Shown here piece after piece: positions 1,894-55,408 of a DNA stretch of 64,000 nt (positions are counted from its first letter, which is position 1; each line of letters begins with the position of its first letter). Below the pieces are notes generated by a model. It was not told where the DNA came from. It saw only the letters and a program-made list of their open reading frames with translations, and made no database searches. The position numbers were made by a program, and so were the translations under genes. The DNA comes from a virus: IMG/VR virus record IMGVR_UViG_3300009149_000016, positions 1 through 64,000 of that record; one strand, given 5' to 3'.

Positions 1894-2316
1894 CTACTCC
1901 TCGATCAACCGGTCCCACACATTTTTCGGATGCTCCGGGGGAGTCGCTTTGCCAAAGATTCTGCCATGCCCATCCGGCCCTTCGAGGACCCACTTGTCAT
2001 CCATGAATCGCAAGGACCAGGTGCGCCATTCGGTCGGGATGCACGCGATGACCCTCGATTTGAATTCATGATACTCAAGAATAGCCCGTTCTTCACCCCC
2101 GGGCTCCTCGTTGTAATGGTGGTTGTAGAAGTAGGCTAGGATGGCGAGCGCAAGCTGAGCGGGCCCACTTCCACTGTAGCCACATTGGAATCCGGTAGGA
2201 CTGTGCCTTCGAAGATCAAGGCGGGGATCGACCACCCACCGAGCCCCATCCCGGTCGGCATAGACCTTCAGACCGTCGGGCTGTTGGTGCCCCAGAAAGA
2301 CGATCTCAGTTGCCAT
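1894..2316 (-). CDS. DUF6166-like protein with C-terminal NVWDRLIEE tag
   Basis: 140 aa. The first half has VFLGHQQPDG and then the run GFQCGYSGSGPAQLALA, which matches the (Y/W)GYxGSGPAQLALAxL signature of DUF6166, a family of unknown function frequent in phages and plasmids. The protein ends NVWDRLIEE, one of the clearer copies of the C-terminal peptide shared by many proteins in this window. The ATG at 2316 was chosen because the family begins there; the start overlaps the upstream gene by eleven bases. Family assignment is moderately sure; role unknown. Confidence 0.65.
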   Translation of the reverse strand: MATEIVFLGHQQPDGLKVYADRDGARWVVDPRLDLRRHSPTGFQCGYSGSGPAQLALAILAYFYNHHYNEEPGGEERAILEYHEFKSRVIACIPTEWRTWSLRFMDDKWVLEGPDGHGRIFGKATPPEHPKNVWDRLIEE

Positions 2317-2539
2317 GGGTCCGGACGGTCTGTTCGATTTCGTCGAGCCTCTTGAGGATGAGGTTGGCGACGTACATGATCGCATACCAGGTCTGTCCCG
2401 GAGCCTTTCGGCAAAGCTCGCAGCGGGGTTGGTGGCTTCCATCGGTGAGTTGAACCGGCGCGATGGCAACATCATCGGTGCCGCAAGCCTCACATCGCCC
2501 AATGATCGAATGCTCAACGATTTCAACTCGGGAAGACAT
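2306..2539 (-). CDS. small zinc-finger-like protein (77 aa)
   Basis: Contains CEAC (residues about 16-19) and CELC (about 40-43), a likely zinc ribbon with two CxxC pairs, followed by a helical tail. The start is preceded by GGTGTA nine bases before the ATG and by a good Shine-Dalgarno GGGAGG, so this copy of the element coexists with a normal ribosome-binding site. Probably a small nucleic-acid or protein adaptor; target unknown. Confidence 0.6.
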   Translation of the reverse strand: MSSRVEIVEHSIIGRCEACGTDDVAIAPVQLTDGSHQPRCELCRKAPGQTWYAIMYVANLILKRLDEIEQTVRTHGN

Positions 2540-2557
2540 GCCTCCCTCTACACCGAG

Positions 2558-2788
2558 TCACCAGAAGTAGTACAGCTTGTCCCATCGAGCCAGGCGACAG
2601 GCCTTCCGAGCGGGTTGCAAGACCGTCCACCCGTCCTTTTCCTCGACGACATCCCACTCGTAACCGCCCCCCACCAATGTCCAACCGATTGGGGTTTCCT
2701 TCCAATCAGCCTTAATGAGAAACCACCCTGAGAGGGTCGGATGCTCCCGAATCTCAGTGATCGTACCAGCGGGAAGGTCTTGCAACAT
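2558..2788 (-). CDS. small hypothetical protein (76 aa)
   Basis: Beta-rich, Trp-rich small protein starting MLQDLPAG and ending RLARWDKLYYFW. The end (WDKL near the C-terminus) is a weak relative of the shared C-terminal WDRL peptide. No family recognised. It sits directly upstream of a strand switch to the plus-strand genes. Confidence 0.5.
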   Translation of the reverse strand: MLQDLPAGTITEIREHPTLSGWFLIKADWKETPIGWTLVGGGYEWDVVEEKDGWTVLQPARKACRLARWDKLYYFW

Positions 2789-2843
2789 AACACCCTACCT
2801 GAAGTACAAGTAATTCCGTCCTCTGTATAACGCGAAGCGTCAT

Positions 2844-3464: not shown

Positions 3465-3668
3465 ATGGATTACGAGACGCTGAAAGCCGCCTGGGACAAG
3501 CTCGAACGAGGTGACCCCCTCACGGACCTTGAGTTGAAGCATCTCAAGAAAAGCGCTGAGCAAGGTCTTGCCTACCTCGAAGCCCGGGGTGAGCGGTTCG
3601 TCCTGTTCAAGACCCGGCTCGACCTGGAGACCATCAAAGGCTACATGCGGGAACGATCGAGACGATAA
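3465..3668 (+). CDS. small charged protein (67 aa)
   Basis: Helical, strongly charged protein ending in Arg-rich RERSRR. Start fixed by GGTGTA nine bases upstream; AAAGG also lies just before the ATG. The stop TAATG overlaps the next start. Possibly nucleic-acid binding on charge alone; function unknown. Confidence 0.55.
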   Translation: MDYETLKAAWDKLERGDPLTDLELKHLKKSAEQGLAYLEARGERFVLFKTRLDLETIKGYMRERSRR

Positions 3669-4084
3669 TGCTCGTCCTTCTATGTGGCAACGGCGAGCTT
3701 GACTTCCTGCCCGTGTGGCCGGAAGCCATTGGCCTTCTGAGTGGAAGGTACACAACCATCCTCGCCCGCAACCGAGCCAATGAGAAGCTCGTTCCGCACG
3801 ATGTGACGAAGGAACACGAGCTTTTCCTTCTGTGCCCAGATCCGAAGCTTGAGAGGGCTCCCTGGATCTTTCAAGTCCAAGTTAATCTCGGACCGGAGAT
3901 CGGTCGCACGTTCACTCTCGACAAGATCGTTGAAAGCTGGGTCCTTCGGGTCGACACGAGCCCCCGAACCCGGTTTTTCCTACCCGACTACCAGCCGACC
4001 ACAAACAGCATCGACCCTCCCCAGATCACGGACGTGATTGGTAGACCCAAACCCGGGACCGTGTGGGATAGGATTGGCGGCTAA
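3668..4084 (+). CDS. hypothetical protein with C-terminal TVWDRIGG tag
   Basis: 138 aa, beta-rich, no family recognised. Starts on the stop of the upstream gene (TAATG), so translation is probably coupled. Ends KPGTVWDRIGG, a near-consensus copy of the shared C-terminal peptide, after a proline/glycine linker that would make it an exposed tail. Confidence 0.65.
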   Translation: MLVLLCGNGELDFLPVWPEAIGLLSGRYTTILARNRANEKLVPHDVTKEHELFLLCPDPKLERAPWIFQVQVNLGPEIGRTFTLDKIVESWVLRVDTSPRTRFFLPDYQPTTNSIDPPQITDVIGRPKPGTVWDRIGG

Positions 4085-5376: not shown

Positions 5377-6441
5377 ATGCCCGATGAGCACCCAGAGCAC
5401 CCGCTCATTCGAATTCGCGACTACCGCTTCCGACTGACCCCCGAAACCCGGGAATTCGCTTTCAATTTGCTCCCACTGTTGCGGGCCGACGCCAACGTTC
5501 GTCGCCTGCACATCACCGATTTCCTCATTGCCTATCGAGACGAAGACGAAGAATACGCAGGGATCGGCGTTCAATTCGAACCAGAGACGGACGCACCAGC
5601 CGGCGAAGACATTCGCCAGATGCTCTCAAGCCTTGAGGACCATCACCCTCTACGGCTTTCCCCAACCCAGCGTGCCCTCACCGAATCCATTCGTCGAGAG
5701 AACGCCCCGCCACGCGTCGACCACCAAACGCTCATTCAGCAAGCCATCATGGGCCAAGAGGGGCGAGCCCGGCTTGCGGCTGCGATGATGGCACCCATCC
5801 GCCAGCGGCTTGATTACCAGTCGCTCGCTCGGCAGACCTTCATGATTGAGCAAATGCCTGAAGGGGCCCTGCCGACCTACGTGCCCCCGCCTGAGCATAT
5901 GCTGCCATCGAATGATGCAAACCCCGGGGCAGATCTTCAAGCCGCCATAGGGGTCCTTCGAGATCTCGGCACGGCCCCGGTACCGGGGAGCATCCCCATC
6001 CTGGACGGAAACATCCATGTCGTTTCCGAGCCTGAGTACGTTGGCGCGTTCCCTGTTCGCACCGAGCTTACCGTCATGCCTGCCGACGAACAGCGGGAGC
6101 CACTTGGCTGGCGGATGCGAGAGACCATCGGTATCGGCATGATCAACCCCCGTGGCCTCGGACGGTTGGGAATGACTCGAAGCGGCATCGAGAGTCTGGA
6201 AGCTCCCCCGTGGCCCGAGTGGGCGGTACCAGGCATCTGGGTCGTGAACCACACCGACGGGTTCGTAGGTCGCATCACACACGTCTACCCAGGTGAAATC
6301 GTCTTGCGTTCGCCCCGGGAATTGTCTGCCAATGGAACCCCGGAGTTTCGGCATCTCCCTCGATCCGACGACTTCACCAGGGACTTCGAACCAGCCATCG
6401 ACCCCACCCTCAAACGCACCATGTGGGATCGGCTTGGTTGA
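5377..6441 (+). CDS. hypothetical protein with C-terminal TMWDRLG tag
   Basis: 354 aa, acidic, starting MPDEHPEHPLIRIRDYRFRL. Has a helical middle region and a beta-rich C-terminal half. It ends PTLKRTMWDRLG, a clear copy of the shared C-terminal peptide. It is one of the largest tagged proteins, which shows the peptide is not limited to tiny ORFs. No family recognised. Confidence 0.65.
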   Translation: MPDEHPEHPLIRIRDYRFRLTPETREFAFNLLPLLRADANVRRLHITDFLIAYRDEDEEYAGIGVQFEPETDAPAGEDIRQMLSSLEDHHPLRLSPTQRALTESIRRENAPPRVDHQTLIQQAIMGQEGRARLAAAMMAPIRQRLDYQSLARQTFMIEQMPEGALPTYVPPPEHMLPSNDANPGADLQAAIGVLRDLGTAPVPGSIPILDGNIHVVSEPEYVGAFPVRTELTVMPADEQREPLGWRMRETIGIGMINPRGLGRLGMTRSGIESLEAPPWPEWAVPGIWVVNHTDGFVGRITHVYPGEIVLRSPRELSANGTPEFRHLPRSDDFTRDFEPAIDPTLKRTMWDRLG

Positions 6442-6952: not shown

Positions 6953-7312
6953 ATGACCATGGCCGACCCATTCTGGGACCACTTCACCGTCAAATCGGTG
7001 TCCAAGGAAGAGGTGGTCATCCATTTCCACAACTCCGACATGCAAAGTCGGTGGCTCCAATGGCTCAAAAAGTACACGGGTTATCCCCAGCAATGGCTCA
7101 TGGGGGGCCTTTTGAAGCAGCGGGAGGGCAACCATGTGGGCTTCTCCAATGAAGCCGTGGGGGCCCTCAAAGATGGCGTCGCTTTGAACCCAAAGGGACT
7201 TTTGGGCGACTACTTTCGCCTAAACGAACGCTTTATCGATGTGCTTATGAAGTGCTATCTTGGCGAACATCCGCAAGGCATCCCGACCATCTGGGAACGA
7301 CTCATGGGGTAG
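6953..7312 (+). CDS. hypothetical protein with C-terminal TIWERLMG tag
   Basis: 119 aa with aromatic-rich N-terminus (MTMADPFWDHF). The first of two nearby ATGs is taken because it sits nine bases after GGTGTA. Ends QGIPTIWERLMG, matching the consensus of the shared C-terminal peptide. No domain recognised. Confidence 0.6.
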   Translation: MTMADPFWDHFTVKSVSKEEVVIHFHNSDMQSRWLQWLKKYTGYPQQWLMGGLLKQREGNHVGFSNEAVGALKDGVALNPKGLLGDYFRLNERFIDVLMKCYLGEHPQGIPTIWERLMG

Positions 7313-7503: not shown

Positions 7504-7926
7504 ATGAACCAACTCGTCGCCGTCCCTTCCAAGCGGTTCCAGATCCTCAACGTCGACCAGGACATCCCCATCCGGCAGTTCGTCTCCCGACATGACTTGC
7601 CGTTCAAGCCGGGGCATGGCTTCTACGAGCACGGCAAGAAACGTGTGCTCGTGCAGGGAACGAAGGAAATCGTCCTTTGGGACAGGGGAACGAAGGAACT
7701 GTTCACGGGCAAGGAAGCGCGCCGGATGCTCGGTCTGCCCCTGACGGACCGGGACATGCACCTTAGCCCCTACAACGCGTATAGCTCTAAATACAAGGTT
7801 TTCATTCAATCCACGAGCTACAACCGCAAGCTTCTGCGTGGTACCCTGTTCCTGTACGAGATCGAAGGATGGGACAAGGAAGGCGACACGGTTTGGGAGC
7901 GGATCGTCGATATCGACTTCGTTTGA
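7504..7926 (+). CDS. hypothetical protein with TVWERI near C-terminus
   Basis: 140 aa, beta-rich. GGTGTA ten bases upstream and AAGGG before the ATG. Ends EGDTVWERIVDIDFV, so the shared peptide is followed by seven further residues. No family recognised. Confidence 0.6.
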   Translation: MNQLVAVPSKRFQILNVDQDIPIRQFVSRHDLPFKPGHGFYEHGKKRVLVQGTKEIVLWDRGTKELFTGKEARRMLGLPLTDRDMHLSPYNAYSSKYKVFIQSTSYNRKLLRGTLFLYEIEGWDKEGDTVWERIVDIDFV

Positions 7927-7942: not shown

Positions 7943-8248
7943 ATGGCCGACAAGGACAAGGACAAGCTTCTCATGGGACCCCCCGTCAAGGAAGGGAGCC
8001 GGGACCATCACTGCCTCCGAACAAGGGGCTGCAATGTGGAAGCAGGCACCGTCCGACTCATCAAGGAAGGTGAGGCGATGCACGGCGAACCGATCGTCAT
8101 GTCTGGAACGGGGCCCACCTACACGATCGACCCCGAAGAGCAAGAGAGCCCCTCTGAGAGCACTTCGGGTCCGGCCAGAGTCGCGAACCCGGCCTATGAC
8201 CAAGGATGGGAGAGGCTTTGGGGTAAGCCTGTCGTGGGGCAAGCCTAA
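7943..8248 (+). CDS. hypothetical protein (101 aa) with weak WERL tag
   Basis: Starts MADKDKDKLL nine bases after GGTGTA with no Shine-Dalgarno (GGTGAATTC). Polar protein; GWERLWG lies fifteen residues from the end, a looser copy of the shared peptide. TAATG overlap with the next gene. Confidence 0.5.
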   Translation: MADKDKDKLLMGPPVKEGSRDHHCLRTRGCNVEAGTVRLIKEGEAMHGEPIVMSGTGPTYTIDPEEQESPSESTSGPARVANPAYDQGWERLWGKPVVGQA

Positions 8249-8652
8249 TGTCCGTACGTTGGCGCAAAGGTGACTTTGGCCGTTATCGATTTGAGGACAA
8301 GGACAAGCCAACCTTCGAATTCCACGGCAAGGACAAGGCTGGGCAAGTCCACCTCTGGCATGGCGGCGAGGACCACATCCGTATGATCCCCATGCGAACC
8401 TTTCAGAAGGACTGTGAGCGAAGCTGGGTCATCAAAAAGCTCAAGCCCGAAAAGCCCGAATGGCTCGTCGAGGGGGCCCGGCTCAAGTGGGGTGGCACCC
8501 AAGTTGTCGTCCGACGTATCGAACTCGATTTCTTCTCGATCTTGGATGATGATGTTCTGCGATTCTACAAGATTGCGGACGCACACAAGTATTTCGTTCC
8601 TGACATAACCGCTTGGGACCTTCTCGATCGGGACTTCCTCTCGGAGGGTTGA
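8248..8652 (+). CDS. hypothetical protein (134 aa)
   Basis: Translationally coupled to the gene before (TAATG) and after (TGATG). Beta-rich, with HGKDKAG and many Lys and Asp residues. Ends DITAWDLLDRDFLSEG, in which TAWDLL is a weak variant of the shared C-terminal peptide. No family recognised. Confidence 0.55.
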   Translation: MSVRWRKGDFGRYRFEDKDKPTFEFHGKDKAGQVHLWHGGEDHIRMIPMRTFQKDCERSWVIKKLKPEKPEWLVEGARLKWGGTQVVVRRIELDFFSILDDDVLRFYKIADAHKYFVPDITAWDLLDRDFLSEG

Positions 8653-9617
8653 TGCCGTACCACGTCGTTTGGGAACTCCAGATTCAACAGGTTCAGCCTG
8701 AATTGTTGACCCGTCTCATCACGTGTCCAGACGTGATGCAAGTCGAGAAGATCGACGAACAACACCTTCAAGTCATGCTCGTGGAAGGACGGGCTCATGC
8801 CGAGATCGAGGGTTGGGAAGATCTCATCTCCGAGCCCAGCGGATATGACGTCTGGCAGATTGAGGGGGGCTACCGGATGCGCATAGCCGATGAACAAATG
8901 CGCACGAGCGCGTTTAATCGGATTGCCTATCCAGAGTCTTCGCAAGAAGAGCTTCAAGAAATAATTGAAAGTTCAGGGCTTTTCCCGTCGCCTTCCCAGC
9001 ATAGCTCCGTTGACACGAGGATCCCGAGTGAGAACCTCGACCAACCTCTTGAGATCGGTGGTGTCGCTAGAATCGGAGGCCAAGCAATTGGAGTCATTTC
9101 AGCAATCGACACCTCTTATAGAGGGGCCGGCGTTGAACAGACAGTGAATGTTCAGCTTTTCCTTCAGAATCATCGCCGGCTCATGATGGTTCCGGTGAGC
9201 ATGATCGATGAACAGCCAAACGATGCTCACCTTCAGATCGGCGCATACATCACGCTTGCTGAAGAGGCTGCTGAAGCAACCATCGTCGCAGTGAGAGACC
9301 AATACGCTGAGGTTGCCATCCGGGACGTTCAGCCCCAACCGTCCCAGCTTTTTCAATACTGGCAGGCTCGAACACACCCTGAACCGGCTGGTGTGGGTGG
9401 GAACGTCTCCCTTTCCGGTGGCGTCGGTGCGAGCTTGGGCGGTCGAGCGACGGCAGGGGACCCCACAGCAGAAGTTCAATCCGACCTTGCAATATACGGA
9501 ATCGACTTTACAGGGGATGAGAGCAAACCCGTGGTCGCGACCGTCGATCAGGAAGTGGGAGAGCGCCTCGACCCCCCTACGATTTACGACCGAATGTTGG
9601 ACGATTCTGACGACTGA
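8652..9617 (+). CDS. hypothetical protein with C-terminal TIYDRM tag
   Basis: 321 aa. The ATG at 8652 overlaps the previous stop. The N-terminal half is alpha/beta (YHVVWELQIQQVQPE), followed by beta-rich segments and a Gly/Ser-rich linker (about residues 255-275). It ends PTIYDRMLDDSDD: the tag with an acidic extension, like other tagged proteins ending in Asp runs. Family unknown. Confidence 0.6.
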   Translation: MPYHVVWELQIQQVQPELLTRLITCPDVMQVEKIDEQHLQVMLVEGRAHAEIEGWEDLISEPSGYDVWQIEGGYRMRIADEQMRTSAFNRIAYPESSQEELQEIIESSGLFPSPSQHSSVDTRIPSENLDQPLEIGGVARIGGQAIGVISAIDTSYRGAGVEQTVNVQLFLQNHRRLMMVPVSMIDEQPNDAHLQIGAYITLAEEAAEATIVAVRDQYAEVAIRDVQPQPSQLFQYWQARTHPEPAGVGGNVSLSGGVGASLGGRATAGDPTAEVQSDLAIYGIDFTGDESKPVVATVDQEVGERLDPPTIYDRMLDDSDD

Positions 9618-14667: not shown

Positions 14668-14967
14668 ATGGAGACCTTTTTGATGATCGTCGGATTTATC
14701 ATCTTGATTGTGGCTGCTTCCGCCGCCTTCGCCACGGGTCTCCATATCCGAGATCGGAGACGAGAGGATGCCGAGCGGGCTGCCAGGCGAGCCGAGTTGG
14801 AAGCGGGCGAAAAGTTGGTTCAGGAATTGGAAGCTGAAAGCGACCAGATCAACGCCACCCTCAGGCGCATTTCGATAAAGCATCACGAAAGACGGATGGC
14901 TGAAAAGGCCAAAGCCAAGGCTTCGAACCCGGGTTACACAATCTACGACCACATCAACGAGGCTTGA
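14668..14967 (+). CDS. membrane-anchored coiled coil with TIYDHINEA tag
   Basis: 99 aa. One transmembrane helix at residues 5-27 (MIVGFIILIVAASAAFATGL), then an Arg/Glu-rich cytosolic coiled coil, ending GYTIYDHINEA. GGTGTAGAAT lies ten bases before the ATG. With the next gene it forms a pair of tagged membrane proteins directly upstream of the peptidoglycan synthase; they may be partners of it (inference). Confidence 0.65.
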   Translation: METFLMIVGFIILIVAASAAFATGLHIRDRRREDAERAARRAELEAGEKLVQELEAESDQINATLRRISIKHHERRMAEKAKAKASNPGYTIYDHINEA

Positions 14968-14970: not shown

Positions 14971-15477
14971 ATGGCCGAAAGTGCAGTCGAAAACCCACTC
15001 CCTCGCCTCATCCTGGTGATCACGTTCGCCCTGGTTTTCGGCACAGGGGCAATTCTCTCCCCGTACCTTGACCAAACCACTGTGTGGGTTGGCGTAGGTG
15101 GCGCGTGTGTGTGCTGGATCCTAGGCGTCCTTGGCTGGTTCTCGACCAAGGACCGTCCCGAGCACAAAGAACCGAAGCCTGAACCGAAGTGGTCCCCGGA
15201 GGCTATCAGGTGGAAAAAGCAGCGGGATGGTCTTCGAAGAAAGCTCGCTGAGATGCAAGTTGAAATAGCTGGGCTGACATCTGATCTTGAAACAACCAGA
15301 GTTGAGCGTGATTCCGAACGATATCAGCGAACTGAACAACTTCGGCTCCTGTTCGAGAAGTCTGTCTCGGAAGGCTTGACCAGCGCCAACCCAAACACGA
15401 CCTTGGGTTGGCCCCCGCCAGAGCCCCCGGCTCCCAAGCCCAAGACCATTTACGACCGCATCAATGAGGACGAATGA
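14971..15477 (+). CDS. membrane protein with coiled coil and TIYDRINEDE tag
   Basis: 168 aa. Two hydrophobic segments (residues about 12-30 and 37-55), then a charged coiled coil (about 75-130), a Pro-rich linker and the C-terminal KTIYDRINEDE. Same architecture and tail as the gene before, suggesting duplication or partnership. The stop overlaps the start of the GT51 gene (ATGA). Confidence 0.65.
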   Translation: MAESAVENPLPRLILVITFALVFGTGAILSPYLDQTTVWVGVGGACVCWILGVLGWFSTKDRPEHKEPKPEPKWSPEAIRWKKQRDGLRRKLAEMQVEIAGLTSDLETTRVERDSERYQRTEQLRLLFEKSVSEGLTSANPNTTLGWPPPEPPAPKPKTIYDRINEDE

Positions 15478-23084: not shown

Positions 23085-23092
23085 GACAAGGC

Positions 23093-38236: not shown

Positions 38237-38861
38237 AATGAGCCTCCGTGAACTGCTTGAGCATAAGACCCATCAAATCGAGAAGCTGCAAGTCCCCCTC
38301 CTCAATCTTCGACCCGAGCAAGACCGCTTGCCCAAGAGGTAGGTGAACGTAGGGCATGGAATGCCGCCATAGAAGCTCACGTTCCAAGGCATAGAAGGTT
38401 TTCAGGACAGGGGCGGATGGGAGGATCTCGACAGAGGCGTCAAACCTGTGCGGGTGGCAAAGCGTTGGGTCATCAATCGAGGACATCATCCGGCAGCGCA
38501 AGGGTCGCCCCTTGTACGCAGAACACTTGTTGTCCCGAAGCAGGGGGCATGGGACAGCGCTCAAGAGCCAAACCTTGTAGTCGAGCCCATTCACCTTGTT
38601 GGACGCCTCCTGAAGGCGGTTCCGGAGCGTTGACGTCCATAGCCGCTCTTTCTTCAGATGCCGGTACAGCAAGATCCCTTCGAAGAAGCTGATAAGCACC
38701 GGGTGGTGACAGCAGTGGTCACAACCCTTTCGGCACGTGATCGGGCGGCGCATCTTGGTCAGAAGCGCTTTGCTTTGCTGCAACCACCGCCCCTCAATCT
38801 CGATCCGGGTCGCCTTGACGTCTGCAACCGCCTGTCGGAATTCAGGGGTCGTCATCGTCAT
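38223..38861 (-). CDS. YkgJ-type cysteine cluster protein
   Basis: 212 aa. CRKGCDHCCHHPV (about residue 43) and CPLLRDNKCSAYKGRPLRCR (about 105) form the metal-binding Cys pattern of the YkgJ/UPF0153 family. Members bind Zn or Fe-S and are of unknown function. The start is either of two ATGs (38861 or 38855) overlapping the upstream stop. Confidence 0.7.
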   Translation of the reverse strand: MTMTTPEFRQAVADVKATRIEIEGRWLQQSKALLTKMRRPITCRKGCDHCCHHPVLISFFEGILLYRHLKKERLWTSTLRNRLQEASNKVNGLDYKVWLLSAVPCPLLRDNKCSAYKGRPLRCRMMSSIDDPTLCHPHRFDASVEILPSAPVLKTFYALERELLWRHSMPYVHLPLGQAVLLGSKIEEGDLQLLDLMGLMLKQFTEAHFGNL

Positions 38862-39327
38862 CCTCTAGGATGTGATCAAACGCCGTGAGGGGCGCCCGGG
38901 GAACCTCTTCCGCCCGCTGCGCCCGCTCGGCCATCGTCCCAAAGCTACGAGGAATGGCAACCCGGACGCCGGGGGAGCCAGGGCGGTAGGTGATGATCAG
39001 AGCGTCCCCGTACCGAAGGGCCAAGTCCGGATGCACGTACAAGGGGCCACCCCGGGAATCGATGTCCGGCGTCACCCACTGCATGAACCGGGTGAGGTTC
39101 TCAAGTCCCTGCCGCACGCCCTGAATGCTGCCACGTCCAATAGGGACGGTCAGGAAGGGCCACTCTTCGGGCGGGTTCCAAAGGGTCGTCCACTCAGCAT
39201 CATCGTCGGCGACATCATAGGAGCGGCCGGTCTCATCGGCGCATCGTCCCATCTTGATTGCGCGATTGAAAGCGATGACCTGACGCCGAAGCCCCGCCGA
39301 ATTCACGATGATGTCGCCAATCCTCAT
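38842..39327 (-). CDS. hypothetical protein with TAFDHIL tag and Asp tail
   Basis: 161 aa, beta-rich (GDIIVNSAGLRRQVIAF, WPFLTVPIGRGSIQG). Ends PLTAFDHILEDDDDDP, a tag variant (Phe, His) with acidic tail. MAERAQRAEE near residue 130 is a faint echo of the RVA peptide. No family recognised. Confidence 0.55.
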   Translation of the reverse strand: MRIGDIIVNSAGLRRQVIAFNRAIKMGRCADETGRSYDVADDDAEWTTLWNPPEEWPFLTVPIGRGSIQGVRQGLENLTRFMQWVTPDIDSRGGPLYVHPDLALRYGDALIITYRPGSPGVRVAIPRSFGTMAERAQRAEEVPRAPLTAFDHILEDDDDDP

Positions 39328-40585: not shown

Positions 40586-40892
40586 GGGTTCGATCGTACT
40601 CAGTTTCGAATCGTTTGACAAGTTCAGGAATTTGCATTTGTCTATCTGGACAAATGTCCATGAGTGCCCGAGTGAAAGCAAACCGTAACCTGGCGAGCTT
40701 TTGTTCGTGCTCGGCCTGATCCTGAATCAGCATCGCCACGGCTGTCGAAATCTCATCCAAAGCCGGACCGAGTTGCTCCAAGGTTTTCAGTTCCCCGATT
40801 GCCTTTATGGTTGCGGCGAGATCAGGGGCTTTCTGACTCAGATTCGAAAGCCCTTTTTTTGCCTTTCGGCGGCGGTTTCGTGCTTGGCTCAT
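40443..40892 (-). CDS. hypothetical helical protein (149 aa)
   Basis: Basic start (MSQARNRRRKAKKGL) then helical coiled-coil-like body (LDEISTAVAMLIQDQAEHEQKL). The last 45 residues are acidic and low complexity and overlap the 72-aa gene, so the true end is uncertain. Confidence 0.5.
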   Translation of the reverse strand: MSQARNRRRKAKKGLSNLSQKAPDLAATIKAIGELKTLEQLGPALDEISTAVAMLIQDQAEHEQKLARLRFAFTRALMDICPDRQMQIPELVKRFETEYDRTHAPGVQQKEVEASEPTGGVDEVDAQGDCDGQEPQRPAIAGIAACTGE

Positions 40893-41248
40893 TGTGCAAA
40901 TGGGGGTCGGCCCTTGAAAACCGTGTAGAACGGAATTGAGCCGGGGTCAGTGTTGGCTTTGTGCTGCATCTCGTCACTGGCATTGCCCGTGGGGAGGCGA
41001 GGCACGTTGTGGGCAAGCTCCAAGAGACGAGCATCGGTCGTGACCCGCTTGAGATCGTTGCGGGCAACCTCATCTCGACTCAGGATCTCGCAGACTTGCC
41101 ATTCGTTCAGGGTGTCCAGAAGGCAAACTTGGCCGTCCATCCAAACGTTGTTTTCCTTGTCCCCATCGCAGAGGCTAGCGGGAGGGCCAGCGTTGCAGGG
41201 GTCCTGGGCGCCGCAAGGATTCTGGTCGTCATCGCATGGGTTGCTCAT
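40889..41248 (-). CDS. Cys-rich small protein (119 aa)
   Basis: N-terminus MSNPCDDDQNPCGAQDPCNAGPP with repeated D/N-PC units and a further Cys (LCDGD), then a helical region. The ATG at 41248 overlaps the previous stop. Might bind metal or form disulfides; no family recognised. Confidence 0.5.
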   Translation of the reverse strand: MSNPCDDDQNPCGAQDPCNAGPPASLCDGDKENNVWMDGQVCLLDTLNEWQVCEILSRDEVARNDLKRVTTDARLLELAHNVPRLPTGNASDEMQHKANTDPGSIPFYTVFKGRPPFAQ

Positions 41249-41484
41249 CGTCCGCTCCATTTCTCCCCGGTCAACCGGAATATGTAGACTGTAACATGCC
41301 CTTCAAAGCACGTCTGCGTGATCCGACTGAACAGATAAGGCCTGCGCCGCCTCAATTCAACAGAAGCTCGGACTTCAGCACTACATTTGGGACACTTGGG
41401 ATCAGGTATGACGGGTTCGGAAGAATCGATCGCAGAAAGGATCTCATCGTCGGTCAGATCGGGAGAGTCTTCACGCTCGTCCAT
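41245..41484 (-). CDS. small zinc-ribbon-like protein (79 aa)
   Basis: Acidic N-terminus (MDEREDSPDLTDDEIL) followed by CPKC and a later single Cys in TCFEGH, a partial zinc ribbon. Overlaps the DUF1848 gene by fourteen bases. Unknown. Confidence 0.5.
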   Translation of the reverse strand: MDEREDSPDLTDDEILSAIDSSEPVIPDPKCPKCSAEVRASVELRRRRPYLFSRITQTCFEGHVTVYIFRLTGEKWSGR

Positions 41485-42334
41485 GGTTCAAAAGGGGAAG
41501 CCTCTTGGTGGTGTCCCGTTTGAGGGGCGAAAGGCTTTCATCGGCACTGTAGCAGTATTGGCAGCCATACGTACAGGCTTCGTTGATCGTGAAGGGCTCG
41601 ACGCAGATGGCGCATCCGCACCCTTCCTTGACGGGCTCCGTCACGGGGGCGAACATGCTGCCATCCTCGCACACGCCGTGGGTGACGTACGTCGTGAGCC
41701 CATTATGTTGGGTCGGACCCGGCAAGGGGGTCGATTCCTCTCGGCAGACCTGCATCACGATGCCGTAGCGCTTGGCAATGGCCGACAGCCGGATCATGAG
41801 CTTGGCTCGTTGCTCCGGGGACCGCTTCTCAGGCATGCGGTCATTCTCCTGCAAGAACGACACGTACACCTTGTTGACGTGCCATTCGAGCCCCTGGGCG
41901 ATCTGTTCGAACCGAGCAACCACTTGCTCATCCGGGATCATGGGTATCGGGCTGAACCGCCACACGACCCGGTCAGGACCGAGAGCGTCCGCAAGCTGGC
42001 GGGTGTGAAAGAGCACCTCCGACAGCGGGGGTACCTTCCACTCAACCTCGTGCCACCCCGTGATCGTCACATGCGCCCGCATGGAGTACCGCTGGCGGTT
42101 GAGCTTGGCCCACTTCGCAAGAGGCTCCGGGTTCTTGGTCCAGAACACGAGCCCGAGTACATCGGCGGGTTGAAGGCTCCAACGATAGGGGAAGGCACTG
42201 CGAGGATCGAAAGCCACCATGTAGCCCTGATCGATTTGTTGCTCGAACCATGCCCACTTGTCCCCCGCACAGATGTCGGTCCACCGGCTCAGACTGTAGG
42301 GTAGGTTCTCCGCTCTGCCCGTCTTCATCTCCAT
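41471..42334 (-). CDS. DUF1848-like (SPL/radical-SAM-like) protein
   Basis: 287 aa. DVLGLVFWTKNPEPL, HVTITGWHEVEW and the C-terminal CGCAICVEPF ... CTYGCQYCYS match DUF1848, a family related to radical SAM/spore photoproduct lyase-type proteins and carrying a Cys cluster. Function unknown. The ATG at 42334 was chosen because it lies ten bases after GGTGTA; two other in-frame ATGs flank it. Confidence 0.72.
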   Translation of the reverse strand: MEMKTGRAENLPYSLSRWTDICAGDKWAWFEQQIDQGYMVAFDPRSAFPYRWSLQPADVLGLVFWTKNPEPLAKWAKLNRQRYSMRAHVTITGWHEVEWKVPPLSEVLFHTRQLADALGPDRVVWRFSPIPMIPDEQVVARFEQIAQGLEWHVNKVYVSFLQENDRMPEKRSPEQRAKLMIRLSAIAKRYGIVMQVCREESTPLPGPTQHNGLTTYVTHGVCEDGSMFAPVTEPVKEGCGCAICVEPFTINEACTYGCQYCYSADESLSPLKRDTTKRLPLLNHGRA

Positions 42335-42863
42335 GCCCATCGTCTACACCGGCAAGACGGTTCCATATGGTTGGGGCAAAGGGGACCGGTTCCTCACGCT
42401 CAATCTTCGAAAGCTTCATGAAAGCCCGCAGTCCATCGTAGACTTCCAGGTCGTTTTCAACAGCACGTCCGTTGACGAAAATGTCGCCATTCGACTTGAG
42501 CATGATCTGGGCAGGCTCTGGTACCGGCCCACCCATCGGATCGTAATCCATCCCCGCCGTAAAAGTGAGGTTGCCCCCATTGGCATACGCTGGGTCAGCG
42601 ATGGTGCGATGTTCAAGCTCGGCGTCGACGACTTGGATGCTCGACCCTCTGTCGTCGGCCGAATCCAAGAAAATGTTGACTTCCGTTGGCTCAGAATCTG
42701 CTATCCACGTAGAGGAATTCGTAAACGGGGAGGCGGGATGCTCGGCTGGGACTTGCGCCGCTTCACGCTGGCGGATCTCGGCTTCCGTCTCCTCAGGATT
42801 CCAGAATGAGGAAAGCATTTCCCTCTCATCAACGTGGTGTAGATCAGAAGGGTCGTCAGGCAT
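42042..42863 (-). CDS. protein with TIWNRL tag and frame running past it
   Basis: The first 170 residues are a coherent acidic protein (MPDDPSDLHHVDERE ... IMLKSNGDIFVNGRAVEN) ending FAPTIWNRLAG. The frame then runs on for about 100 low-quality residues antiphase to the DUF1848 gene. One base off, the TAG of GGTGTAG (42344-42346) would end the protein as PTIWNRLPV. So a one-base indel or frameshift at the tag is likely, and the true end is probably 42344. GGTGTA lies ten bases before its own ATG. Confidence 0.5.
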   Translation of the reverse strand: MPDDPSDLHHVDEREMLSSFWNPEETEAEIRQREAAQVPAEHPASPFTNSSTWIADSEPTEVNIFLDSADDRGSSIQVVDAELEHRTIADPAYANGGNLTFTAGMDYDPMGGPVPEPAQIMLKSNGDIFVNGRAVENDLEVYDGLRAFMKLSKIEREEPVPFAPTIWNRLAGVDDGHGDEDGQSGEPTLQSEPVDRHLCGGQVGMVRATNRSGLHGGFRSSQCLPLSLEPSTRRCTRARVLDQEPGASCEVGQAQPPAVLHAGACDDHGVARG

Positions 42864-46307: not shown

Positions 46308-47171
46308 TTACTGAGCTTGTAGTTTCGCTTGGAAGTATTTCTTGAACAGCTTTGCTGTCGTCGAACCAATGGCTTTTCGAGCCTCCTTGCTATCGACGAT
46401 CTCCCCTGCACCCTCGCGCAAGACATCCTCCGTCATCGCTTGGATGACTTCTTTGGTCCGTTCCATCCCGATGTCGCCCTCGATCTTGTCCAGGACATGC
46501 TCAAGGCGAGTCGGAGTCACCCACTCATCGGCGATGGCTTGCGCTTCCTCCAACACCTTGAGCTTTTCCGGGTCGACTACCTGGCGAGGCGTATTGGTCT
46601 CCCGCTCCTCATCTCGCTTGTGCTTCGAAAGGACACGCTCCCCCCGGTGGTCTCGGTATTCCGTCAACGGACGAAGCACGACACCTTCACGGGGTTGAGG
46701 TTCTTCAATCCCATTGCGAACCGCTTGAACACTCGGCGCATCCCGCTGCTTGTCGATCTCTTCCACGGTGGCCGCAATCCGCTCATAGTGGACGAATTCC
46801 AAGCTAAGTTTGGTCGCAACATTATGGGCGTTTTCGACGGACAGCCACGTGTCATCGATCTTGACCTCAAAGGCAGCGAACTTCAGATCCTTGCCGTATC
46901 TCCAGGTCTGCTTTTGCTGACTCCCACCATACGCTTCGCCGTAGACAACCACGGTCGGATGACCCAGCGCCTCGAAGGCTTTCACAAGCGCAGCCTCATC
47001 GAACAGCGACCGAAAGCGTTCCGCCTTCGCGCCGCCCGACGAGAATTGCAACTTGCCATCCCGCCATTGGATGCTGGTTGACGTCCCATGGAGCTTTTCC
47101 AAGGCAAAGCATTCCTTGAAGGCTAGGATTCCCTGGTTCTTATAGAGGTTCTCGATGTGTCGGTAGCCCAT
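46308..47171 (-). CDS. RNA ligase, Rnl2/editing-ligase type
   Basis: 287 aa. EKLHGTSTSI (motif I with nucleotidyl Lys near residue 26), VVYGEAYGGSQQ (motif III-like), EGVVLRP (motif IV) and LSKHKRDE (motif V) give the complete nucleotidyltransferase core of Rnl2-type ligases. These seal nicks in duplex RNA or repair cleaved tRNA. A CCA-adding enzyme lies 3.5 kb away, so tRNA repair is a reasonable role. Confidence 0.85.
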   Translation of the reverse strand: MGYRHIENLYKNQGILAFKECFALEKLHGTSTSIQWRDGKLQFSSGGAKAERFRSLFDEAALVKAFEALGHPTVVVYGEAYGGSQQKQTWRYGKDLKFAAFEVKIDDTWLSVENAHNVATKLSLEFVHYERIAATVEEIDKQRDAPSVQAVRNGIEEPQPREGVVLRPLTEYRDHRGERVLSKHKRDEERETNTPRQVVDPEKLKVLEEAQAIADEWVTPTRLEHVLDKIEGDIGMERTKEVIQAMTEDVLREGAGEIVDSKEARKAIGSTTAKLFKKYFQAKLQAQ

Positions 47172-47177
47172 TTGATC

Positions 47178-47363
47178 TCATCTTTCGTTGCAGAAAGGAA
47201 TCTTCTTCCGCTCCATCTCGGCCTTGGCCTGGCAAGAGATACACCAGGCCACTTCAGGCCAGTTGGCTCGGCTTTTTTGACAGGTGGTGCCCTGCATCAT
47301 GCAAGGCTTCTTTCCAAGCTCTAGAAGCTTCGCATAGGGCAGGGCTTCGAGGGGGCGTTTCAT
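47178..47363 (-). CDS. small zinc-finger-like protein (61 aa)
   Basis: CMMQGTTC and CISCQA (residues about 21-28 and 42-47), plus a Cys near the end, give a CxxxxxxC/CxxC metal site. Starts on the ClpX stop (ATGA), so co-translated with it; possibly a ClpX adaptor, by analogy only. Confidence 0.5.
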   Translation of the reverse strand: MKRPLEALPYAKLLELGKKPCMMQGTTCQKSRANWPEVAWCISCQAKAEMERKKIPFCNER

Positions 47364-48622
47364 CCCTTGGCCTGCTTTTTCTCCTCTTGCTGGATCGCTT
47401 CATCGATCCGGGCTTCGGCCCCCTCGACCACCAACTCAGTAACGTGGATCGCCTTCATGTCGGGGTCAGAGGGCGCGTCGAACATGTAGGGCTCCAAGAT
47501 AGCCTCAACGATCCCTCGGAGCGCTCTTGCCCCCGTGGGCTTCTCGCAAGCCTTGCGAGCGATGGCATGCAGGGCATCATCGTCGAACGAAAGGGCAACC
47601 TCATCGATCGTGAACAGCGCTTCGAACTGCTTGACCAGGGCGTTCTTGGGTTCGGTCAGGATACGCACCATCTCATCCTCGGTCAGGGGAAGCGTGCTGG
47701 TGATCACCGGCAGCCGGCCGAGAAGCTCAGGGATCAGACCAAAGTCGAGGATATCATCCTCGGTAATGTTGCCGTAAACCTCATCGGCCTTGATCCTGTT
47801 GGGCTGCCCCCCGCCGAATCCGAGCCGGGCGCCCTTGTTCCGGCGCTCGCCCACGACTTCCTCGATCCCGGCGAACGATCCCGAACAGATGAACAGGATG
47901 TTGGTTGTGTCGATCATGTCGGAAGTACCCATCCCGATCTTCGAACCCATCCCACGAGGCACGGGCACAACCCCACCCTCGACAAGCTTCAGAAGGGCTT
48001 GCTGGACGCCTTCACCGGACACATCTCGGTACCCCGTCGCTCCCCGCCCGCTCTTGCGGGTGAGCTTGTCGATCTCGTCCACGAAGATGACGCCCCACTC
48101 GGCGCGCTCGATATCCCCATCGGCGTCCTGAATGAGCCCCTGAAGCATCGTCTCGACGTCATCACCGACGTAGCCAGCTTGCGTCATGCGCGTCGCATCC
48201 GACACGTAGAAGGGCAGCTTGAGCATACGTGCCACCGACCGAGCGATGTGGGTCTTGCCGGTACCCGACGGGCCCATGAGCAAGATGTTGGACTTGTCGA
48301 TTTCGATATCGCCCGCAATCCCGTCCTTGACTACGCCACGTCGTTTGAAGTGGTTGTAGACCGCAATGGCAATCGCTCGCTTGGCACGGTCTTGGCCGAT
48401 CACATGCTCGCTGAGGATCTTGAAGATCTCACGGGGCTTGAGAAGGATGTCATCCCCGCCCTGTTCCGCAGCTTCCTTGTTGCGGTTGGTGATCGCCTTG
48501 ACGGCAGAATCAATGCAGCGGTTGCAAATGAAGGGTCCTTCGTCACCACCCGAGATGATGTGCTTCACCTCGTTGGAAGGGCGACCGCAGAAGGAGCAGA
48601 CTTGACGCTTGGCTCTGGGCAT
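47360..48622 (-). CDS. clpX: ClpX-type AAA+ unfoldase
   Basis: 420 aa, full length. N-terminal zinc-binding domain with Cys at 9, 12, 33 and 36; MGPSGTGKTHIA (Walker A); QAGYVGDDVE (pore-1 GYVG); VIFVDEIDKL (Walker B); SGRGATGYRDVSGEGVQQALLKL; and GARLGFGGG, the LGF-type loop that docks on ClpP. All key residues are present, so it should unfold tagged proteins and may use host ClpP. No ClpP gene in the window. GGTGTA nine bases before the ATG. Confidence 0.9.
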   Translation of the reverse strand: MPRAKRQVCSFCGRPSNEVKHIISGGDEGPFICNRCIDSAVKAITNRNKEAAEQGGDDILLKPREIFKILSEHVIGQDRAKRAIAIAVYNHFKRRGVVKDGIAGDIEIDKSNILLMGPSGTGKTHIARSVARMLKLPFYVSDATRMTQAGYVGDDVETMLQGLIQDADGDIERAEWGVIFVDEIDKLTRKSGRGATGYRDVSGEGVQQALLKLVEGGVVPVPRGMGSKIGMGTSDMIDTTNILFICSGSFAGIEEVVGERRNKGARLGFGGGQPNRIKADEVYGNITEDDILDFGLIPELLGRLPVITSTLPLTEDEMVRILTEPKNALVKQFEALFTIDEVALSFDDDALHAIARKACEKPTGARALRGIVEAILEPYMFDAPSDPDMKAIHVTELVVEGAEARIDEAIQQEEKKQAKG

Positions 48623-52325: not shown

Positions 52326-52753
52326 ACGGTCGCTTGGGGTGCCTGGGACTTGCGCTTGAGGAACTGGCGCTCCCAATGCTTGCTCCGGGTTCCCAAGTAC
52401 AGGACCCGGTCGTTCGGACACGGCGTGACGATCACGTTTGTCATCGGCACCCGCCCAACCTTTTTCCCACACTGAAGCTTGTAGCCGGTCCCATTGGTCC
52501 AAACGGCGCCCCGCCCGCTCGTGAGCAGTTCGCTCGCAAGGTCCATCGCGTGCGTCCGGTCAATCCGAAACCGAATGAACGTGAGAGCGCCGATGTTGAG
52601 CGGGCCGTTCGCTTCGAGGAAATCAAACTTGATCTGGGCTTTCGCTGCGGTTCGCAAGACTGCTTCTGCGACGTCTTGGACCGATTCGAGGGATTGTTGT
52701 TCGACAGCGAAGTACGTCGCCGGGGTGTTCGAAGGAAAGAAGTGGTGCATCAT
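52322..52753 (-). CDS. hypothetical protein (143 aa)
   Basis: Starts on the DHFR stop (ATGA). Alpha/beta protein with VQDVAEAVLRTAAKAQIKFDF and GRVPMTNVIVTPCPNDRVLYL. No family recognised; co-expressed with DHFR and thymidylate synthase. Confidence 0.5.
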   Translation of the reverse strand: MMHHFFPSNTPATYFAVEQQSLESVQDVAEAVLRTAAKAQIKFDFLEANGPLNIGALTFIRFRIDRTHAMDLASELLTSGRGAVWTNGTGYKLQCGKKVGRVPMTNVIVTPCPNDRVLYLGTRSKHWERQFLKRKSQAPQATV

Positions 52754-53538
52754 GTTCGTACGTAGTAGCGGTGGAGAAGGTCAGGGTCGTCGGGGTTGTG
52801 GCTCTCGGATTCGAGAGTGAATGCTTCCATGGGCAGGCGAGGCATCGGGGTGATGTCACCCATTGAGAGAACCACAAGATCTGGCACGATTGTCAGATCC
52901 AATGCGTCGACGAATGGCAGCGCCGCCTCATAGACCATCGCACCACCCGCTACCCACCTTGGTCGTCCAGCAAAGTACATTCTCGAAAGTTCGAACGCAA
53001 GCTCGATTTCGTTGACTGCCCGCACGCCCGTGTCTTGAAACGGACCTGGGTTGCTCGTGAGCACGATGATCTCACGCCCCTTGAGCTTTTTCCGTCCAAG
53101 CGACTCGTAGGTCTTGCGCCCCATGATGAGCACACCGCCCATCGTCCGCTGTTTGAATCGGCGCATGTCGGCCTTACGATGCCACGGGATGCCTCCGTCG
53201 GCTCCGATGACACCTTGGGGGTTGATGGCGGCGATAAGCGTCGTCTTGACCTGTTTCTCTTCCACTATGCGCTCCCAGATGGTTGGGCGACCGGCGAGGG
53301 GCCCCCAAATCTCCAAAGCTTCCTCTTGGGTGGCCTCTCGCTCTGGGATCTTGTCCAAATCCATGATCTGCTCAGGCTTGTAGACATGCCCCCGGTCGAC
53401 GAAGTAGCTCTTGTGGTCGGAAGGCATCTCTCCGGGCTTGAGGAAACGCCCCATGTTGAGCACGAGAAGCAGAAATCCATCCGTCGTTCGATGCCATTTG
53501 ACGATCTGCTTCGTTGCCAGGATGTAGGTGCGGCCCAT
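52750..53538 (-). CDS. dihydrofolate reductase fused to a small tagged protein
   Basis: 262 aa. The C-terminal 165 residues are DHFR: LIAAINPQGVIGADGGIPWH, IMGRKTYESLG, EIIVLTSNPG and RWVAGGAMVYEAALP, with catalytic acid and NADPH motifs present. The N-terminal about 92 residues are a separate small protein that ends RPTIWERIVEE, the shared C-terminal peptide, now internal at the fusion point. No ATG lies at the DHFR boundary. DHFR regenerates tetrahydrofolate consumed by the thymidylate synthase two genes away. Confidence 0.85.
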   Translation of the reverse strand: MGRTYILATKQIVKWHRTTDGFLLLVLNMGRFLKPGEMPSDHKSYFVDRGHVYKPEQIMDLDKIPEREATQEEALEIWGPLAGRPTIWERIVEEKQVKTTLIAAINPQGVIGADGGIPWHRKADMRRFKQRTMGGVLIMGRKTYESLGRKKLKGREIIVLTSNPGPFQDTGVRAVNEIELAFELSRMYFAGRPRWVAGGAMVYEAALPFVDALDLTIVPDLVVLSMGDITPMPRLPMEAFTLESESHNPDDPDLLHRYYVRT

Positions 53539-53795
53539 CAAAACACTCCAAGGTGAACACAGGGGGTCTCATTGACCGGAGAAGTCCACCCCAAGATCAG
53601 ACATAGAGGACAAGGGATGTGCTCAAACTCGATACCATGCACCTTTTCCACCCGCAAGATCGCCTGAAGGTACCTCTTGGACATCGGAAAGTGATGCCTT
53701 CGAAGATACCTCCAGCCTGTCACGTACCACAGGATACAGCACGGGTGGATATCCGAGCGCAGCCCGTTGACCATGTGCTCAAAGGTGTCACTCAC
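53538..53795 (-). CDS. small Cys/His/Trp-rich protein (85 aa)
   Basis: Between DHFR and thymidylate synthase with TGATG and four-base overlaps. HPCCILWYVTGWRYLRRHHF and HIPCPLCLILGW hold several Cys/His that may form a zinc site. Unknown; probably expressed in the thymidylate operon. Confidence 0.5.
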   Translation of the reverse strand: MSDTFEHMVNGLRSDIHPCCILWYVTGWRYLRRHHFPMSKRYLQAILRVEKVHGIEFEHIPCPLCLILGWTSPVNETPCVHLGVF

Positions 53796-54907
53796 ACGGC
53801 GACCTTGAACTTGATGTTTTCCCGGGGCATGTAGTTCTCGATCCGGAACAGCTTCATGATCTGCTCCGTCGTCACCGAAGGATCCAAAAGGGCCTCAACG
53901 TCTTCGAGCGTCCGAATGGAATCGTCAATGAAAAGATTGGGGGGCGAGTCAATGTCCCGCTCAAGCTGTTCTTCGAGCCCGGGTACGTGGTCGTACTCGG
54001 CTTGGGTACCGTCGGCTTTCTTCGTGTAGATGTGGGTATCCACGAGCGTGTGGCCGAAGATCCCAGCTTCCATGTCGGCAAACCGAGCCATGAGCGAACA
54101 CAGAAGGGCGTAGCTTGCGAGGTTGTACGGCACCCCCAACGCCACATCGCATGAGCGCTGGGTCAAGTGCAGGCAAAGCCGTCGGGGGTCGTCATAGGCC
54201 GGACCATCCTTGAAAGGTTCACTCTTGTGAATCTTGTTCAAGATTTGTTTGCACTTGGGACACCAAGCTTGCCCCCGATCAAGCACAGCAATTCCGGTTC
54301 GGGTTTGCGAACCACGAGGTGCGCCGCAGACAGGATCAAATCCGTCGTTGTGCCCATAGTGGAACACCTTGTCCACGCCCTGGTTCTGGACGTTGAAGAT
54401 GAACATGCAGTGGCAGGGGGCCCAATAGGTCTTGAGGGTCGGGGGCGTTTGCACGATGTGAGGCTGCCAGGCGCTTACCACGAGATCCCGCCGCATCGGG
54501 TTGGTCTGAAGCTGCCCCATCACCCACTTGATTTGGTCGTTCCATTCGGTGACCGGCCCATCGTAGCCGAGCCCCGTCTCATCCATACGGTAGCCGGGGG
54601 TCTCGAACCGGCGCCAGGCGGGCCCATAGGCGGCGTTGACCTTCCCGTCGTCCCGGTACCAGGGTCGCCAGAACTTGATCCCATGCCGCTCAAGGAAGTC
54701 TTGCCCGTTGGTACCCGACAGGAACCACAGAAGCTCGATCACAATGTTCTTCCACTGGATTTCCTTCGTGGTCAGAAGCGGGAAGCCATCCCTCAGATCG
54801 TGCTCGTAGTAGTACCCAAACGTTGACAAGGTGTCTACGCCAGTTCGGTTTTCCTTGCGAACGCCGTGCTTGAGCACATGGCGCACGAGATCATGATATT
54901 GTCTCAT
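53792..54907 (-). CDS. thyA: thymidylate synthase (ThyA type) with zinc-like insertion
   Basis: 371 aa. Starts MRQYHDLVRHVLKHGVRKEN with RTGVDTLSTFG; TKEIQWKNIVIELLWFLSG, the catalytic WAPCHCMF (Cys near 168), QRSCDVALGVPYNLASYALL and HTLVDTHIYT are canonical. Between CHCMFIF and LHLTQRSCD, where the family has about ten residues, lies an insertion of about 65 residues with CGAP and CPKC plus His. It converts dUMP to dTMP with methylene-THF. Overlaps neighbours. Confidence 0.88.
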   Translation of the reverse strand: MRQYHDLVRHVLKHGVRKENRTGVDTLSTFGYYYEHDLRDGFPLLTTKEIQWKNIVIELLWFLSGTNGQDFLERHGIKFWRPWYRDDGKVNAAYGPAWRRFETPGYRMDETGLGYDGPVTEWNDQIKWVMGQLQTNPMRRDLVVSAWQPHIVQTPPTLKTYWAPCHCMFIFNVQNQGVDKVFHYGHNDGFDPVCGAPRGSQTRTGIAVLDRGQAWCPKCKQILNKIHKSEPFKDGPAYDDPRRLCLHLTQRSCDVALGVPYNLASYALLCSLMARFADMEAGIFGHTLVDTHIYTKKADGTQAEYDHVPGLEEQLERDIDSPPNLFIDDSIRTLEDVEALLDPSVTTEQIMKLFRIENYMPRENIKFKVAV

Positions 54908-55133
54908 TTTCCACTTTCACGGGGAGGGGGTAGTGAATGAAGTCGAAGGTGGCGCAGGTTCCGCAGCTTCGGCACTTGTAGACGTAGATTCCATCCCGAA
55001 TGGCCTTGAACACCGGATCCACGTTGAGAAACTCACCACATTTGCAGCGGGTCACGAAGCCTTGGTCGGCAAGTAGCTTCTGTTCCAGCCGTTTCCGAAG
55101 ATAGGCGTGGTACCAGTCAACCAAGAACTTCAT
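54891..55133 (-). CDS. small zinc-ribbon protein (80 aa)
   Basis: Helical start (MKFLVDWYHAYLRKRLEQKL) then CKCG (about 30) and CRSCGTC (about 53), a zinc ribbon. ATG at 55133 overlaps the stop of the tagged gene; its end overlaps the thyA start by seventeen bases. Confidence 0.55.
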   Translation of the reverse strand: MKFLVDWYHAYLRKRLEQKLLADQGFVTRCKCGEFLNVDPVFKAIRDGIYVYKCRSCGTCATFDFIHYPLPVKVENETIS

Positions 55134-55408
55134 AGCCTCTCCCAGATGGTTGGGCGCTTCTGGTCCCACCCCAGTTCGGCCTCACGCACCCTGGAAGCGT
55201 GCACGAAGGCTTCCAGGGCGTCGTAGAAGTCCGTCGTGTGCAAGGTTATGCGCTCGTTGGAGCACAAGAGTCCATCCTTGACTCGCAGGGTGACCACCGG
55301 AACCTTTTCCCTCCGGTCGATCTTGAGATAAACCACATCACCTACGGCAAAAACGGTGACGTCATCCTCATCGGAGTTGGCTTCCGGGCCGATAACAACG
55401 GTCCTCAT
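55130..55408 (-). CDS. hypothetical protein with C-terminal TIWERL tag
   Basis: 92 aa, beta-rich (VVYLKIDRREKVPVVTLRVKDG). Ends QKRPTIWERL-stop, the same end as the N-terminal part of the DHFR fusion (RPTIWERIVEE). Small stand-alone example of the tag. ATGA overlaps on both sides. Confidence 0.6.
   Translation of the reverse strand: MRTVVIGPEANSDEDDVTVFAVGDVVYLKIDRREKVPVVTLRVKDGLLCSNERITLHTTDFYDALEAFVHASRVREAELGWDQKRPTIWERL

Follow-up and report, generated by a model that had tools for sequence, protein, structure and literature searches.

Why should many proteins with unrelated bodies, encoded across one phage genome, end in nearly the same short peptide? The question is raised by a 64-kb window of DNA, the first part of the 107,136-base IMG/VR virus record IMGVR_UViG_3300009149_000016, in which an earlier reading of the sequence (the original prediction) recognized a C-terminal peptide of the form T-[IVM]-[WYF]-[DE]-[RH]-[ILM]. 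We analysed this window together with the remainder of the record and a set of related contigs. The shared tail is very probably a docking, or address, peptide that is used across a clade of huge phages.

A recurrent C-terminal tag in the record and its relatives

Gene calls and start sites are those of this analysis and give 128 proteins of at least 60 residues in the record. All eleven strong copies of the tag lie at the gene ends to which they had been assigned. A six-frame scan with [TS]x[WYF][DE][RH][ILM] returns 13 matches in the 64 kb, comprising ten of the strong ends, the supposedly weaker copy at 23635 (SQWERL), a copy past a stop codon (37892), and a copy within a DHFR fusion (53283). 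The eleventh strong end, NVWDRL (1894), starts with N and is recovered by a looser pattern. The pattern [TSN]-x-[WYF]-[DE]-[RH]-[ILM] occurs within the last 20 residues of 12 of the 128 proteins, as against a mean of 0.05 and a maximum of 2 in 20,000 shuffles of the C-termini, and just two matches fall among the other 31,432 residues. Motif discovery with no preset motif ranks the same motif first. Scores from a position-specific scoring matrix of the tag are bimodal, with 14 sites at or above 12.6 bits, 12 of them no more than 14 residues from a stop. None of the 32 proteins in the replication and structural half of the record (57-107 kb) is tagged, compared with 12 of 96 elsewhere (p = 0.04). 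Tagged proteins amount to about 10% of those in the record; most are of unknown function, and few contain a known domain. Forty tagged proteins, when aligned, have TxWERLLxxD alone in common.

Searching with the ClpX protein of the window as query led to a syntenic group of huge-phage contigs. These relatives are metagenomic contigs, some of them partial: G021 (252 kb), G022 (437 kb), G023 and G024 (231 and 435 kb), G025 (87 kb, partial), G026 (251 kb), G027 (286 kb), and G028 (110 kb); the studied record is G000. G022 was covered except for 20 kb, and G023, G024, and G026 were covered for about 21 kb each plus genome-wide pattern counts. Tagged proteins number 28 in G022, 11 in G021, four to five in G027, and one in G028, where the internal match rate predicts 0.9, 0.5, 0.2, and 0.1, respectively; G025 has none. 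One further G027 match (102881-104077, NNFYERIA) was set aside as chance. The enrichment holds in G022 and G021 as well as in the record, and the original view of the tag as a peculiarity of one phage gives way to a clade-wide feature, since tagged proteins in relatives rule out a private tag. Single-protein scans of IMG/VR, an AAA-ATPase profile, and the relatives of an RNA ligase yielded nothing, or phages without the tag, and two DNA-pattern scans for the tag returned isolated matches only, apparently by chance. LR745208 and Tunturi_5, two more distant huge phages that were both read, have no tag, though their replication and structural genes are related, and the parts of Rctr197k that were read have no tag system.

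Other members of the clade use a second dialect of the tag, T-R-F-[DE]-R-[IL]. Genome-wide, the DNA pattern TxW[DE]R gives 9, 9, and 30 matches in G000, G021, and G022 and 0-2 in each other clade member (48 versus 5), while TRF[DE]R gives 10, 7, 2, and 1 in G024, G027, G023, and G028 and 1, 0, and 1 in G000, G021, and G022 (20 versus 2); these counts and their Fisher value are descriptive, and copies inside one genome are non-independent. Six-frame inspection places 34 of 50 TxW matches (G000, G021, and G022) and five of seven TRF matches (G027 and G028) near stops. The dialects sort by phage clade.

In one family, that of 38842-39327, the protein ends in a tag-like sequence in each of the six relatives where the family occurs. 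Its C-termini are PLTAFDHILEDDDDDP (G000), NPTAFDRIMQDDSFDEGEE (G022), KANAFSRLLSDDQIGDDD (G021), PRNRFNHILDEDEE (G028), EKNRFTRLLGDDSE (G025), PVSRFTREADDIVGDD (G024), and PPTVYDLIGDDET (G026). These ends therefore widen the motif to an aromatic residue, any residue, R or L, and I or L, followed by acidic residues. The AlphaFold2 model of the family has a confident beta body, a break, and then a helix at residues 149-156, right after T148, with a predicted local distance difference test score (pLDDT) of about 55-72. For the body, Foldseek returned PDB matches below significance only, tandem-Tudor-like folds among them.

Conservation acts on the peptide rather than the DNA, because synonymous codons agree no more often than codon usage predicts: tag positions with the same amino acid show 90 identical codon pairs versus 105 expected (95% range 85-130). 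Third codon positions are 26% identical between tag copies, and the flanking DNA is unrelated. The copies are therefore either old or convergent. An artefact, whether chance, a DNA element repeated at gene ends, or recent duplication of those ends, is contradicted by the shuffles, the motif search, the tagged relatives, and the saturated synonymous sites; we found no point in its favour and regard its probability as negligible.

Comparison of 53 tagged proteins gives T-[AVI]-W-[ED]-R-[LI]-L-[ED]-D-D as the preferred residues. Between 0 and 14 residues separate the tag from the C-terminus, and acidic residues often come after it. The 14 positions before it are 14.7% proline, compared with 5.6% at other C-terminal ends, and a transmembrane-like segment is present in six of the 53 tagged proteins versus 44 of 1330 others (p = 0.01). 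T-x-x-[DE] is a classical helix-capping box. The original prediction had left sorting, complex assembly, and degradation side by side. The peptide-level signal, the proline-rich linkers, the recurrence in relatives, and the change of dialect by clade support a sorting or assembly tag well. An ssrA-type degradation tag fits poorly, because the motif may stand up to 14 residues from the end and one internal copy precedes DHFR. PDZ-like and C-degron readings are ruled out, since the motif need not be terminal.

Tagged genes of the window

The tagged and tag-like genes are as follows.

1894-2316, minus: DUF6166 protein; tag NVWDRL at 1906-1923, past the Pfam domain
3668-4084, plus: orphan protein; tag TVWDRI at 4058-4075
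5377-6441, plus: capsid-piece protein; tag TMWDRL at 6418-6435, in an added extension
6953-7312, plus: orphan protein; tag TIWERL at 7286-7303
7504-7926, plus: free-standing C-terminal domain from a phage family of vWA proteins; tag TVWERI at 7888-7905
8248-8652, plus: variant-tag protein; TAWDLL near the end, at residue 121 of 134
8652-9617, plus: orphan protein; tag TIYDRM at 9579-9596
14668-14967, plus: small protein with an N-terminal transmembrane-like segment; tag TIYDHI at 14938-14955
14971-15477, plus: membrane protein with a proline-rich linker; tag TIYDRI at 15445-15462
23093-23635, plus: DUF3268 zinc-ribbon protein; tag SQWERL at 23573-23590, past the Pfam domain
26277-26630, plus: variant-tag protein; TTWDLILD at the end
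35954-36289, plus: orphan protein; tag TQWERL at 36269-36286, the final six residues
37892-38236, minus: 91-residue protein, then an in-frame TGA (37961-37963) and 12 residues before tag TIWERL (37907-37924)
38842-39327, minus: small beta protein; tag TAFDHI at 38869-38886
42042-42863, minus: tag-like TIWNRL at 42354-42371, then a frame overlapping the next gene
52750-53541, minus: small domain and tag TIWERI (53266-53283), fused in frame to DHFR
55130-55408, minus: orphan protein; tag TIWERL at 55133-55150, the final six residues

Several of these sequences show the tag added to ordinary protein bodies, the DUF6166 and DUF3268 proteins, the capsid-piece gene, and 7504-7926 being examples. The body of 7504-7926 is homologous to a vWA family found in Rctr197k (48%), Myrna gp18, Cr30, and others; these relatives end where 7504-7926 runs on into GDTVWERIVDIDFV, so that the tag is added after the homologous part. 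The capsid-piece protein joins two segments (residues 116-168 and 192-265) that derive from a major capsid protein of the phage-G type, whose middle is missing, and adds extensions to them. Such pieces (PVRTELTVLPAD; RxDYQSxGRRTFLVE) are reused in accessory proteins, of which several are tagged: besides 5377-6441, they occur at 36104-36856, 46851-47960, and 222382-222798 in G021 and at 70219-70977 in G022.

The weaker copies in the original prediction fared unequally. The DUF3268 copy is a good one, and the G021 ortholog of this protein ends in RTAWDILMDDDTS. The copies in the genes ending at 8652 (TAWDLLDRDFLSEG) and 26630 (TTWDLILD) resemble the relatives’ variants TAWDLLDEDLFGE and TAWDILMDDDTS, and the widened motif supports them as variants. 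The gene ending at 8248 belongs to a family with a conserved end of its own (...VVGEA or ...ITGQA). For the copy at 2558 no support was found.

The three unusually placed copies, past a TGA (37892), at a frame break (near 42371), and between a small domain and DHFR (53283), are all present. Orthologs of 37892-38236 in G021 and G026 end close to the TGA position and lack the tag. The G027 homolog of 42042-42863 ends in RSRFERLSEG. The DHFR part of 52750-53541 may also start alone at an internal GTG, just upstream of which lies a purine-rich run (GTGGAAGAGAAACAG).

Candidate receptors and known targeting systems

What would read such a tag? Three genes of the window enter the argument by name.

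57411-58571, minus: candidate receptor, 386 amino acids, with a modelled HK97 (capsid/encapsulin) fold from AlphaFold2 and Foldseek; distribution from profile search
58561-60135, minus: AAA ATPase (phrog_8638), rival receptor; its gene overlaps 57411-58571 by 11 bases
47360-48622, minus: phage ClpX, rival receptor, with a complete zinc domain and LGF loop

Our best explanation, which we hold tentatively and at somewhat less than an even chance, is a docking tag bound by one phage receptor, with the HK97-fold protein favoured. The tag would form a short N-capped amphipathic helix with the consensus T-[AVI]-W-[DE]-R-[LI]-L-x-[DE]-[DE], or T-R-F-[DE]-R-[IL] in the second dialect, and dozens of unrelated accessory proteins would present it on a flexible proline-rich linker. 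A single phage-encoded receptor would bind the tags and gather their carriers in one place. For this role 57411-58571 is possible rather than probable. It would assemble into a shell or scaffold, separate from the capsid of the virion, and there gather tagged proteins in the way that encapsulins take up cargo through C-terminal targeting peptides, and tagged membrane proteins would tether the assembly to the inner membrane. We infer the single receptor, its identity, and the assembly of a shell. We favour a phage-made shell or scaffold because C-terminal peptides on proline-rich linkers beside an HK97-fold protein are the architecture of encapsulin loading. The fullest version of this idea, an internal shell or scaffold of a second HK97-fold protein that is filled or coated via the tag, and thus a virus-made, encapsulin-like compartment with clade-specific dialects, membrane tethers, and capsid-piece adaptors, is doubtful.

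By profile search, the 57411-58571 family is represented by a single protein in each of G021, G022, G025, G027, G028, and the G026 locus, and was undetected in LR745208, Tunturi_5, the Rctr197k parts, G003, G006, and the loci of other AAA-ATPase phages. No sequence link was found in PHROGs, Pfam, PDB sequences, or GTDB genomes. The AlphaFold2 model, built on a seven-sequence alignment, has a pLDDT of 81 and a predicted template modelling score (pTM) of 0.56. All of its top PDB matches in Foldseek are HK97-fold shells (SaPIbov5 procapsid, T. maritima encapsulin, HFTV1, phi29, and cf-PICI capsid), with E values of 2e-4 to 4e-3, probabilities mostly of 0.9-1.0, and template modelling scores (TM-scores) of 0.2-0.45; among BFVD viral models, most of the named top matches are major capsid proteins. 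The HK97 fold is likely from these models, and not proven because the TM-scores are low. The protein is not the major capsid protein, because G022 and G027 encode a separate phage-G-type capsid protein of 290-292 residues with no profile similarity to it.

Several observations weigh against this explanation. ClpX, the AAA ATPase, and the genes at 40889, 41471, and 60245 have the same distribution as the candidate: by BLAST, ClpX, 57411-58571, 58561-60135, 41471-42340, 40889-41248, and 60245-60571 are all in G021, G022, G027, and G028 but not in LR745208 or Tunturi_5. With so many co-occurring genes, co-occurrence alone cannot name the receptor. Columns of the alignments that partition by dialect number two in 57411-58571 (R180L and T183S) and four in ClpX, too few to choose between them. 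G025 (partial) and G026 have the 57411-58571 family but few or no strict tags. The modelled fold evidence is weak to moderate, given the TM-scores, the pTM, the small alignment, and the lack of sequence support. Tagged genes are scattered across hundreds of kilobases, unlike encapsulin operons, membrane-anchored clients are ill-suited to a sealed shell, and the orphan bodies reveal no common function. The link from tag to receptor is itself one that we infer.

ClpX, proposed in the original prediction as one candidate reader, is intact and occurs in every tag-clade contig examined, at 56-61% identity, and was not found in the untagged LR745208 and Tunturi_5. That proposal holds to this extent, but several other proteins co-occur equally and the case for 57411-58571 is no weaker. 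Under this reading the tag would dock its carriers on the phage ClpX, either as timed substrates or as adaptors that hand their partners over to that ClpX and to host ClpP. The precedent is SspB, whose short, flexibly linked C-terminal peptide attaches it to the zinc domain of ClpX, and both the zinc domain and the LGF loop of the phage protein are intact. However, the tag does not seem to resemble the SspB tail, a motif up to 14 residues from the end or internal is no ssrA-type degron, and many ClpX phages show no visible tag in the roughly 20 kb read around each ClpX. We judge ClpX unlikely, if not greatly so, as the reader. A fairly unlikely alternative is another clade-specific phage protein, either the AAA ATPase or one of the unknowns at 40889-41248 and 41471-42340. 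All three are present in tag-bearing relatives and undetected by BLAST in untagged ones, and the ATPase gene overlaps that of the favoured candidate, but homologs of the AAA ATPase are widespread among phages, and the surroundings of those that were read showed no tag. It is quite improbable that the tag binds a host hub protein, with the two dialects answering to two host groups. The dialect does track phage clade, which may track host, and the tagged proteins are small accessory orphans, as are many host-takeover proteins; however, at least 28 clients are many for one host protein, and the co-occurring clade-specific phage genes point inwards.

If the HK97-fold protein is set beside known systems, Family 1 encapsulins offer the closest architecture. 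The targeting peptides of encapsulin cargo are short, in most cases C-terminal, and attached by linkers rich in glycine or proline (PMC10960027), and cargo is loaded through such peptides and linkers into an HK97-fold shell (PMC10960027, PMC8346489). The phage system would likewise combine a short C-terminal peptide, a flexible proline-rich linker, unrelated carriers in the place of cargo, and a candidate receptor with a predicted HK97 fold. In contrast to Family 1 encapsulins, the tag consensus is TxWERLLxxD rather than the published SDGSLGIGSLKRS, the clients number dozens instead of one or few, and tagged genes are spread over contigs of 107-437 kb instead of lying beside the shell gene. 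The encapsulin Pfam family gave no match at E <= 1 in 57411-58571, with seven homologs searched. Because comparison of targeting sequence, Pfam family, and operon layout showed no agreement, we do not file the system as an encapsulin.

Bacterial microcompartment encapsulation peptides are also terminal amphipathic helices joined by flexible linkers to unrelated cargo (PMC11157265). They are 15-20 residues long and bound by microcompartment shell proteins, whereas the phage tag has 6-10 residues; no such shell protein was seen among the selected proteins scanned with Pfam, the whole genome not having been scanned for one. With ssrA-type degrons and SspB tails the tag shares short C-terminal peptides and the presence of a phage ClpX, but it differs from them in lying 0-14 residues from the end, or internally, often with acidic residues after it. 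The chimallivirus nucleus, with its import factor Imp1/PicA, is a further possible analogue, in that a huge phage there selects a subset of proteins through a receptor. Import into that nucleus proceeds without terminal signals, however, and the tag-bearing phages have LR745208 as a relative and phage G as a more distant one. ChmA and Imp1/PicA were absent from the matches obtained, though no search was aimed at them.

Terminal address tags with a single receptor are known from cellular compartments, and our literature search found none read by one receptor in any phage. Since the tag unites about a tenth of the record’s proteins in one functional class, a pull-down with a single peptide could show what dozens of orphans share. 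Should the HK97-fold protein prove to be the receptor, viruses would have an equivalent of encapsulins, with a bearing on the proposal that encapsulins arose from phage capsids.

Other motifs and genes

A second recurrent motif, similar to MAERVAxRYL, recurs in about seven unrelated minus-strand proteins, where it sits at either terminus or at a domain border (window positions 13330, 32660, 33408, 33873, 34749, 35154, 50727, and 50768); it also occurs at N-termini in LR745208. Three adjacent genes at 21758-23635 contain related W-containing patches (DWDLLRP, DWNLLRP, and FDLLWKP), perhaps another docking motif. The AAA ATPase and two small conserved proteins (60245-60571 and 60610-60780) form a minus-strand cassette, 58561-60780, that is kept across the clade. 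The RNA ligase (46308-47171, minus) is about 60% identical across many otherwise unrelated huge phages and is a widely exchanged gene. Record positions 61395-65417 (minus), which run past the end of the window, encode a 1340-residue family A DNA polymerase that appears to contain an intein-like insert.

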